Source: Dyella sp. A6 (lineage in GTDB: Bacteria; Pseudomonadota; Gammaproteobacteria; Xanthomonadales; Rhodanobacteraceae). Taken from it: DNA of 64,000 bases. Each line of letters begins with the position of its first letter. Positions within the stretch are counted from its first letter, which is position 1. A program made the position numbers and the translations under genes. The stretch covers positions 3,224,001-3,288,000 of the forward strand of contig NZ_CP132911.1 in NCBI RefSeq assembly GCF_036320485.1, given 5' to 3'. The notes below the pieces were generated by a model that was given only the letters and a program-made list of their open reading frames with translations, was not told the DNA's origin and did no database searches. This document shows, one piece after another, positions 34,515 to 37,304 of the stretch.

Positions 34515-34578
34515 CGTCCCGGCAAAGGCCGGGACGAAGCTTTTCGAAACATCTCCCCGCGCTGGGCACCGCGGGGAG
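34515..34578 (-). terminator. Tandem hairpins downstream of the MetJ-H1 fusion gene
   Basis: Read on the minus strand, a first stem (34578-34570 with 34561-34553, CTCCCCGCG/CGCGGGGAG) is followed by a second (34536-34528 with 34523-34515, CGTCCCGGC/GCCGGGACG, 4-base loop), then TTTCGTTTCT. The second has the features of an intrinsic terminator. Confidence 0.7.
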
Positions 34579-34607: not shown

Positions 34608-35228
34608 TTACTTCTTGCTGGTTTTCGCACGCGGCTTGGCGGTACGGGTGGCCTTGACCACACGAGCCGGCGCAGCCTTCTTCACGGCAGCCTTCTTGCC
34701 GGCGGTCTTCTTCGCGCCGACCTTCTTCACCGCGACCTTCTTGACTGCAGCCTTCTTGGCAGCAGCAGGACGCTTGGCAGCCGCCTTCTTGGCGACCTTC
34801 TTCACGGCAGCCTTCTTTGCTGCCGGCTTCTTGGCCACCGGCTTCTTGGCGGCAACCTTCTTCGCGGCAACCTTCTTGACCGCGACCTTCTTCACCGCAA
34901 CCTTCTTTGCGGCGGTCTTCTTTACGGCTTTCTTGGCGGCCGGTTTCTTGGCGGCCGGTTTCTTGGCAGTGGTTTTCTTGGCGGTAGTAGCCATGGTTCG
35001 TCTCAGCTCCTCATCAGTTGGCAGTGGTTGCCCAGTAAAAGCGTGCAGGAACGCCTCGACCAGCAGATCGCTGTTGGTGGCGTGCCGAAGATTGTTGACC
35101 TGGCGGTAGGTACGCAAATCGGAAAGCAGCCTCAGTACGTGCATCGGAATGGAGACCGTGATCTTTCTTACTGACCCGGCCTTCTCTCCGTGCTCTACAT
35201 AAGGCTCGACGAATTTCGATGTTGCCAT
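34608..35228 (-). CDS. MetJ-like repressor domain fused to a histone H1-like Lys/Ala-rich tail
   Basis: A 206-residue protein in two parts. Residues 1-77 are MetJ, the SAM-dependent methionine repressor: the DNA-contacting beta strand is KITVSIP, followed by [19 protein letters not shown] and [10 protein letters not shown], nearly identical to E. coli MetJ. The Arg, Glu, His and Phe residues known to form the SAM pocket appear kept. The C-terminal helix of E. coli MetJ is missing; instead residues 79-206 are repeats of KKxA/VxKK type (Lys, Ala, Val, Pro), like AlgP or bacterial H1-like proteins. An ATG at residue 79 with AGGAG twelve bases upstream could start the tail on its own. Start chosen at 35228 ([16 protein letters not shown]) because it matches MetJ. 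Whether it regulates methionine genes or coats DNA is unknown. Confidence 0.88.
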
Positions 35229-35307: not shown

Positions 35308-35658
35308 CCTGTTTCATCCACCTTCAAATACCCTGAAAATGGCTTTGCCATCGAATGGAAAAGGATTTTGAGTAAATAGTCATATGGACGTCTATACGCC
35401 CATTTTATTTACACCAAAAAACATGGCGAATCGCCAAACCCCGCACCACACAAGGCTTCACAGCCAACTACCAAGAGCGTGAACTGGCAAATCCACGCAT
35501 CACCAACTGGTCAAAGCACATGCCAGGAAGTCGAAATGACCGCATGCGAGCCACGCCACGCGCATGAACGGGAAGCGACCGATCCGCACATTTCGCGGCA
35601 TCGGATCATCGTGCAAATCGTACCCGTACGATGACATCCGGCTCGCTGCAACCATCAC
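35308..35658. other. AT-richer noncoding region with a possible met-box array
   Basis: About 350 bp with no supported gene, noticeably richer in A/T than its surroundings. At 35378-35401 three consecutive 8-mers AGTCATAT, GGACGTCT and ATACGCCC match the MetJ operator unit AGACGTCT at 5, 7 and 5 of 8 positions. The centre is 100 bp upstream of the predicted -35, farther than usual for repression. Otherwise nothing is recognised. Confidence 0.3.
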
Positions 35659-35711: not shown

Positions 35712-36107
35712 TCAGTGATCCTCGTTTTCGATCAGCTCGGCATAGGCATCTGCGTCGAGCAACTCATTCAACTCGGCGCGATCGCTCATGCGTACCACGA
35801 AGATCCAGCCTTCGCCGTACGCGTCTTCATTGACCGTCTCCGGCTTGTCGCTCAGCATCTCGTTGACCTCGACCACCTCGCCGGACACCGGCGAATAGAT
35901 GTCCGAGGCCGCCTTGACCGACTCGAGCACAGCGGCGCCATGGCCAGCCTGCACGCTTGCGCCGATTTCCGGCAGCTCGACGTAGACCAGGTCGCCCAGC
36001 TGGCTCTGTGCATGGTCGGAAATACCCACGCGCACCAGGCCGTCGTCTTCGACGCGGGCCCATTCGTGGGACTTGAGGAATTTCAGATCGCCGGGAATCT
36101 CGCTCAT
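35712..36107 (-). CDS. gcvH: Glycine cleavage system H protein
   Basis: Carries the aminomethyl group on a lipoyl arm between GcvP and GcvT. The 131-residue protein shows [31 protein letters not shown] and the lipoylation site [15 protein letters not shown] (the Lys in SVKAASD). It follows gcvT on the same strand with a 96-bp gap; the glycine decarboxylase gcvP is not in the window. A strong terminator follows. Confidence 0.97.
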
Positions 36108-36203
36108 GATCGGGTTCCAGTCATGGAGGTTGGGGATGGGGCGACGGCGATTCTAGCCGCTTACGTCGCCCAGCAATATGTCGACGTGATGGATCGCGCG
36201 GTT

Positions 36204-37304
36204 TCAGATGCCTTCGCAGGGCTTGCCGTCGCGCACGAACGGATACTTGACCACGCGCACCGGTACCTCGCGACCACGGATATCCACCCGCACCGCACCG
36301 AGTTCGCCCGCCGGCACGCGTGCGAACGCCACTGCCTTTTCCAGCGTCGGAGCGAAGCTGCCCGAGAGGATCTCGCCCTCGCCGGCCTCGGTCAGCACGT
36401 TCTGGCCATGCCGCAGAACCCCTTTTTCGTCCAGCACCAGGCCGACCATCACACGCTTCACACCGGCAGCCTTCTGCTGCTCCAGCGCGGCGCGGCCGAT
36501 GAAGTCACGTCCTTCGTCCAGCGCGATGGTCCAGCCAAGGTTGGCCTCCCACGGCGAGACGTCCTCGTCCATGTCCTGGCCATAGAGGTTCATGCCGGCT
36601 TCCAGGCGAAGCGTGTCGCGCGCACCGAGCCCAGCCGGCTTCACACCCGCAGCCACCAATGCCTCCCACAACGCCACGGCCTGCTCGGCCGGCACGATGA
36701 TCTCGAAGCCGTCTTCGCCGGTGTAACCGGTACGCGCCACGAACAGCGGCATGCCGTGCGGCCCCTGTGCGGCGGCGGCGGCGAACTTGCCGAGCTTTTC
36801 GATCCGCGGGCGATCGCCCTCGTGCAGCAGGCCGAACACTTTCGCCCGCGCATTCGGGCCCTGCACCGCGATCATCGCGAAATCGGGACGCTCCTTGACC
36901 TCGACGCCGAAGGCCGCGGCCTGCTTCTCGATCCAGGCCAGGTCCTTCGCACGCGTGGCGGCATTCACCACCAGGCGGAAATGACTGTCGTCGAAGAAGT
37001 ACACGATCAGGTCGTCGATGACGCCACCCTGCTCGTTGAGCATGCACGAGTACAGCGCCTTGCCCACCACCTTGAGCTTGTCCACGCTGTTGGCCAGCAG
37101 ATGGCGGAGGAATTCGCGCGTGCGCGGACCGTGCAGGTCGACCACAGTCATGTGCGAGACATCGAACATGCCCGCGTCGCTGCGCACGGCATGATGCTCC
37201 TCGATCTGCGAGCCGTAATTGATCGGCATGTCCCAACCGCCGAAATCGACCATGCGTGCGCCATGCGCACGGTGGACGGCATTGAGTACAGTCTTCTCGG
37301 TCAT
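36204..37304 (-). CDS. gcvT: Glycine cleavage system T protein (aminomethyltransferase)
   Basis: Releases ammonia from the aminomethyl-lipoyl H protein and passes the one-carbon unit to tetrahydrofolate. A 366-residue protein of usual length with [56 protein letters not shown] and the [10 protein letters not shown] motif. The start at 37304 ([12 protein letters not shown]) is canonical. The leader before it is only about 20-25 bases if the predicted promoter is right, leaving no room for a glycine riboswitch. Confidence 0.97.

Follow-up and report, generated by a model that had tools for sequence, protein, structure and literature searches.

The window analysed here, a stretch of 64,000 nucleotides from Dyella sp. 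A6, carries on its reverse strand an uninterrupted open reading frame (ORF) in which a MetJ domain is joined to a histone H1-like tail rich in lysine and alanine:

34608..35228, reverse strand: metJ-H1 fusion ORF, 206 amino acids, with its ATG at 35228 and its stop codon ending at 34608
34995..35228, reverse strand: MetJ ribbon-helix-helix part, residues 1-78 (PF01340, 2e-34; 1cma, 7.5e-30)
34608..34994, reverse strand: H1-like Lys/Ala tail, 128 residues from Met79 (PF07382, 4.4e-10)

Residues 5-86 match the Pfam family MetJ (PF01340; 117.9 bits, cut-off 25), the NCBIfam equivalog MetJ model NF003622 is passed (122.3 bits, cut-off 110), and residues 4-80 match the E. coli MetJ chain 1cma in a search of solved structures. 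The tail matches the Pfam model HC2 (PF07382) at residues 81-201, where the score of 40.4 bits against a cut-off of 40 is marginal and aided by composition. The Burkholderia H1-like model NF038053 aligns its position 1 to residue 79 with 43.4 bits, under its cut-off of 80, and the NCBIfam cut-offs of both NF038053 and NF038052 are not reached by the tail. The C-terminal helix C was not found in these comparisons: the Pfam match stops at residue 86 and that to the E. coli chain at residue 80, after which the tail takes over. A sequence-only reading of this DNA had proposed that residues 1-77 are MetJ-like, that a Lys-rich tail of H1 type follows in the same protein, and that this tail replaces the usual C-terminal helix. 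The first proposal is borne out by PF01340, PF07382 and the uninterrupted ORF, the H1-like nature of the tail agrees with the marginal PF07382 match and with the alignment of NF038053 from its first position, and the replacement of the helix agrees with the point at which the MetJ match ends and the tail starts. A structure model of the fusion was uninformative (mean pLDDT 46.7, with 20 close relatives in the alignment). The genome of Dyella sp. A6 (3.72 Mb, one contig) holds a single MetJ match, and the metJ-H1 ORF is the orthologous metJ of the Rhodanobacteraceae.

MetJ was detected in 227 of 233 genomes of this family, including 190 of the 192 of good quality, and in 96 of 299 genomes sampled from the order, 20 of which belong to three other families; a sample of 369 genomes from the class gave five, two of them Rhodanobacteraceae. 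Among the family genomes whose ORF was read, the tail was fused to MetJ in all 88 with a complete ORF, representing 25 of 26 genera, and no stop codon or frame break separated the two parts in any of them; four further genomes, in which the gene is cut by a contig end, were excluded from this count. Likewise, when the best 80 of 190 named relatives were taken (Rhodanobacter, Dyella, Luteibacter, Fulvimonas, Frateuria and unnamed bins), the fusion was present in 77 of 77 complete loci, three more being cut; the named and unnamed sets overlap, so that the counts are not additive. One contig filed under Candidatus Eremiobacteraeota (L051) bears a Rhodanobacteraceae metJ fusion and is probably misbinned. 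The surroundings of the gene are fixed in 69 of 69 full-length named loci, with gcvT and gcvH on one side and TonB-like and beta-lactamase-like genes on the other, all named by reading their sequences. The gcvH- and gcvT-like genes (35712-37304 in the window) lie directly upstream of metJ, a possible one-carbon link. None of the 20 MetJ genes from those three other families carries the tail, and all of them stop shortly past the same point, by which the short C-terminus would seem the earlier state and the tail a later addition. In the available part of a published survey (PMC4239095), MetJ turned up in six other groups but not in any of the four Xanthomonadales covered, and Xanthomonas campestris 8004 is said, in the accessible text of another study, to have no metJ (PMC6230763). 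The two-domain architecture is already present in databases under the name MetJ, and a literature search, with subscription journals mostly outside its scope, turned up no paper, among those listed, that describes the fusion or an internal translation start within metJ.

Across 146 distinct fused genes the tail ranges from 34 to 309 residues, and it is strongly cationic, with 29-50% Lys+Arg and just seven acidic residues in all 146 tails together. It opens with MATTAKK in Dyella sp. A6 and mostly with MATAKK, also MATKK or MAMKK, in relatives, and methionine makes up 0.2% of the residues elsewhere in the tails. Relatives of the tail without MetJ, judged from the best 120 of 242 matches, are proteins with HC2 and SWIB domains, and MATAKK stands at or near the start of the four that we examined, as it does in most tails. 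The one other HC2 match reported for the Dyella sp. A6 genome (L036, 1-1677) falls on a Lys/Ala tail at the end of a protein that, from sequence reading alone, is topoisomerase I-like, which suggests a tail module shared between proteins.

Upstream of the fusion ORF, tandem MET boxes abut a promoter-like site, and a terminator-like hairpin follows the gene:

35378..35401, reverse strand: tandem MET boxes before metJ, probable autoregulation; 100 of 146 family genes have them at a comparable position
35402..35429, reverse strand: sigma-70-like promoter TCGCCA-16-TAAAAT abutting the MET boxes; 9/12 matches
34515..34536, reverse strand: intrinsic terminator-like hairpin downstream of the ORF, with a stem of 9 pairs, 8 being G-C

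Between 34500 and 35500 there are two sigma-70-like sites of the promoter's grade, against a shuffle mean of 0.3, and five terminator-like sites of the same kind, against a shuffle mean of 1.7. In those 100 genes the best 16-mer at -215 to -140 fits two MET boxes at 12/16 or better, as did 0.4% of 1460 shuffles. The best MET-box site of the Dyella sp. A6 genome lies at a putative met operon (C1:3035868-3036043, outside the window), where three boxes stand immediately before a TTGACA hexamer, which is followed by a SAM-I riboswitch; this operon is apparently under double SAM control. Its label rests on the riboswitch and on the next ORF, read as cystathionine-gamma-synthase-like, and the first gene gave an alpha/beta-hydrolase match only. 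With at most one mismatch, 12 places in this genome carry MET boxes, a level for which there is no control, and about five of them fit methionine-type genes: the met operon, metJ, metN (ABC_tran + NIL), aspartokinase and, less certainly, an aminotransferase. The other places include gltB-like, TonB-receptor-like (Plug), hemB-like (ALAD) and HAD-like genes, with L206, L207 and L209 left out. At three mismatches there is no excess of MET boxes in this genome, the forward pattern being rarer than its reverse (123/128 vs 270/262). At one mismatch or fewer, eight other genomes of eight genera gave 5-21 forward matches against 0-2 for the reversed pattern, and seven of 30 loci from them were recognised by eye: one gltB-, one metE- and one asd-like gene, two siroheme-synthase-like genes and two metJ. 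MET-box-like sites precede gltB-like genes in two genera (L203, L229), which may thus be unexpected targets of MetJ. In Rhodanobacter thiooxydans FW510-R12, the available part of one report gives MetJ and MetQ as rising and four methionine enzymes as falling with nitrate (PMC12146267), and the opposite movement of MetJ and the enzymes there is a correlation only. With MET boxes before metJ itself, the met operon, metN and aspartokinase, the fusion protein is most readily taken for a methionine repressor to which a tail has been added, and its MetJ half keeps the look of such a repressor.

As far as the accessible text of a study of E. coli MetJ goes, Glu39 and Arg42 are crucial partners of SAM (PMC2775130). 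Alignment to E. coli MetJ places their equivalents at 35106-35117 of the window, where the residues are Leu and Tyr, so the earlier idea that the SAM-touching residues are all kept fails at these two positions. Both Glu39 and Arg42 are retained in 86 of the 146 fused ORFs, one has Glu39 with His42, and 59 have Leu39, followed at residue 42 by His (35), Tyr (18), Glu (5) or Ser (1). A link between the loss of this pair and decay of the metJ boxes was tried and gave no clear answer, with mean box scores of 10.9 for Leu/Tyr (18 sequences), 12.7 for Leu/His (35) and 12.0 for Glu/Arg (86). Because Glu39 and Arg42 are replaced, the role of SAM as co-repressor in the Leu/Tyr clade is uncertain. The family also supplies naturally occurring MetJ proteins in which both main SAM contacts are gone, and these would help in asking how SAM activates MetJ.

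At the border of the two parts the nucleotides themselves are conserved, up to and including an in-frame start codon, a striking feature that the sequence-only reading had passed over:

34998..35042, reverse strand: constrained 45-nt stretch (15 codons), with its end 3 nt ahead of the internal ATG; seven codons frozen
35003..35013, reverse strand: extended Shine-Dalgarno match TGAGGAG.TGA; duplex -11.5 kcal/mol
34992..34994, reverse strand: internal in-frame ATG (Met79), the proposed start of a free H1-like protein

Synonymous identity between genera, calculated from the 71 of 146 sequences with a genus label (22 genera), is 0.79 in this block, 0.47 elsewhere and 0.56 in the best other 15-codon window. 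Seven of the 15 codons stand at 0.97 or higher and none of 54 other codons is above 0.88, whereas block codons +1, +4 and +6 vary as freely as codons elsewhere (0.47, 0.43 and 0.39). In 100,000 draws of random codon sets the block was never equalled; its limits had been picked post hoc, after the data had been seen. On a tree of the 146 sequences built without the block, synonymous changes per codon number 3.9 inside it and 20.4 outside, and the codons just past the ATG, with 16 and 11 such changes, are not frozen. GAGGAG is present in 145 of 146 sequences, while the other Glu codons of MetJ are GAG and GAA in a ratio of 242:231; codons -6, -5 and -1 are ACT, GGG and CCA in 144/145, and Arg is encoded by AGA in 138 of 138. 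Tailless MetJ genes of two other families have no such block at codons -8 to +3 (0.41 vs 0.48 in 13 genes; 0.54 vs 0.54 in six). A 30-nt core of the stretch is present as a single copy in 23 of 25 family genomes and is missing from G460 and from a 1.5-Mb genome that gave no MetJ match. It is also missing from all 16 genomes of other families, a weak control in that only one of the 16 had a MetJ match, and the tailless MetJ genes are the better comparison. Three other causes of the constraint were considered and set aside. An overlapping reading frame was rejected by reasoning rather than computation, as the variable sites are third positions of the main frame and changes there would alter an overlapping protein. 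Additional pairing with 16S rRNA was rejected because the longest match, 9 nt, lies within shuffles (mean 7.9, maximum 11). A conserved RNA fold was not convincing, the consensus fold of 107 distinct sequences being weak (-5.6 kcal/mol) and its pair changes, among those counted, mostly one-sided.

The codon at the junction is ATG in 145 of the 146 distinct fused ORFs and GTG, also a start codon, in the remaining one; in ten ORFs the codon before the junction is deleted and the ATG is retained. Methionine also occupies the junction in 164 of 164 scoreable cases among at least 182 fused proteins listed, a set that overlaps the genomes. Over the 146 genes the mean Shine-Dalgarno duplex is -10.6 kcal/mol for the internal ATG, -6.1 for the annotated start and -3.7 for other codons, of which 1.5% match the internal strength. 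The spacing from GAGGAG to the ATG is 12 nt, longer than ideal, and 9 nt where the codon is deleted. Folding energy over 80 nt is -14.3 at the internal ATG versus -24.7 at controls (49 of 146 sequences sampled), and in 39-nt windows the fold is only moderately weak, 14% of MetJ windows being equally weak or weaker. In G460 (L132), the only family member read with a GTG junction, GAGGAG and several of the fixed codons are gone as well, which makes it a natural test case for loss of the internal start. An internal ribosome start that yields a free H1-like protein is the simplest predicted reading of the stretch, and we put at roughly 60% the probability that metJ encodes two proteins, a tailed MET-box repressor and a free H1-like protein from Met79. 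Against it stands the abundance of Lys/Ala proteins in these bacteria anyway, HC2 being matched in 214 of 233 family genomes, in many of them several times and in some up to eight.

The conserved part from -47 to -19 goes beyond what a ribosome site accounts for, and two alternatives start from the stretch as a whole. It has been suggested, and disputed, that Shine-Dalgarno-like sequences inside genes slow ribosomes. The gene might accordingly give one product, the tailed MetJ, with the constrained codons tuning ribosome speed so that MetJ folds and dimerises before the tail emerges; the block lies exactly at the domain border and fixes codons, such as AGA, that are little used elsewhere in MetJ. 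We consider this unlikely, since exact codons are kept and not merely rare ones (ACT, GGG and CCA in nearly every sequence), and since the start codon survives the one-codon deletion with GTG as its sole substitute. Slightly more doubtful is that the stretch is a regulatory site of another sort, namely an internal promoter, a target of a small RNA or protein, or a site of RNA processing, which would give an mRNA for the H1-like part only or control the metJ mRNA. The reach of the conservation to -47, past the ribosome site, fits such a site, as does a GGCA-N5-TGCC inverted repeat present inside the stretch in 98 of 107 distinct sequences, which forms a small hairpin of 4-5 pairs in several of eight single-sequence folds that have no overall structure in common. 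On the other side, a simple consensus scan found no sigma-70-like site in the stretch, Rfam returned no family at gathering score in the window (weak matches near the stretch have E values of at least 0.18), and the weak consensus fold and the 16S match of shuffle length described above also count against it.

Other alternatives concern the role of the tail. The sequence-only reading had favoured a SAM-responsive nucleoid protein, or a repressor spreading along DNA from its operators, as the main role, and the strongly cationic tail and the similar tail on the topoisomerase I-like protein are in keeping with it. Such a main role is improbable: MET boxes stand at metJ, the met operon, metN and aspartokinase, methionine genes as for ordinary MetJ, the tail varies in length from 34 to 309 residues, and the two main SAM contacts are replaced in one clade. 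In Pseudomonas, the available part of one study states that the KPAA tail of AlgP is needed for the spacing of polyphosphate granules and that its fragments bind DNA (PMC9239181). By that precedent the tail might serve as an anchor, as in AlgP/PhaF, that holds the repressor on the nucleoid or on polyphosphate instead of covering DNA; this is very unlikely, as no feature noticed at the locus points to granules and the internal start would be left unaccounted for. Least credible of all is that Met79 is a fossil, left without a present function by an old fusion of metJ with a separate H1 gene: although the H1-like relatives examined do carry MATAKK at or near the start, a fossil would not hold synonymous sites constant over many genera.

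If metJ does encode two proteins, full-length dimers would bind MET boxes while their H1-like tails hold neighbouring DNA, the cationic tail in place of the C-terminal helix most likely adding a non-specific grip on DNA. Ribosomes would also start at Met79, guided by the Shine-Dalgarno sequence inside the MetJ frame, and release a free H1-like protein of 128 residues that may coat DNA without specificity. Because the metJ promoter has MET boxes, autoregulation by MetJ would set the level of both products, which would then rise and fall with methionine/SAM status. It is a more tentative proposal, possible and still short of probable, that metJ in this way couples methionine/SAM to the nucleoid, with both products autoregulated and DNA coating rising when SAM is short. 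A textbook repressor has been rebuilt across a family outside the groups for which the survey recorded MetJ. Should the internal start prove real, one gene would be nested inside another, and a specific regulator would have its reading frame and its feedback loop in common with a general DNA-coating protein.

Like E. coli MetJ, the protein of this family has a ribbon-helix-helix domain, MET-box operators, probable autoregulation and met-gene targets. It differs from E. coli MetJ in having an H1-like tail for the C-terminal helix and a probable internal start, and in one clade in being without Glu39 and Arg42. The Rhodanobacteraceae fusion lies outside the six groups named in the available part of the MetJ survey (PMC4239095). 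Pseudomonas AlgP and PhaF likewise join a separate N-terminal domain to a Lys/Ala/Pro tail thought to bind DNA, but their N-terminal part is not MetJ, and no internal start is mentioned in the accessible text (PMC9239181). With Hc2 (PF07382) and NF038053 the tail shares its Lys/Ala composition, the alignment of position 1 of NF038053 to Met79, and the MATAKK starts of relatives; unlike them, the H1-like part is here fused to MetJ and scores under the NF038053 and NF038052 cut-offs. In-frame internal starts are known from CheA, InfB and ClpB and from sites mapped with retapamulin. As in genes of the CheA, InfB and ClpB type, metJ would putatively give a long and a short product from one frame; unlike in those genes, the short product would differ in kind from the regulator, and the site is constrained at the level of its nucleotides.
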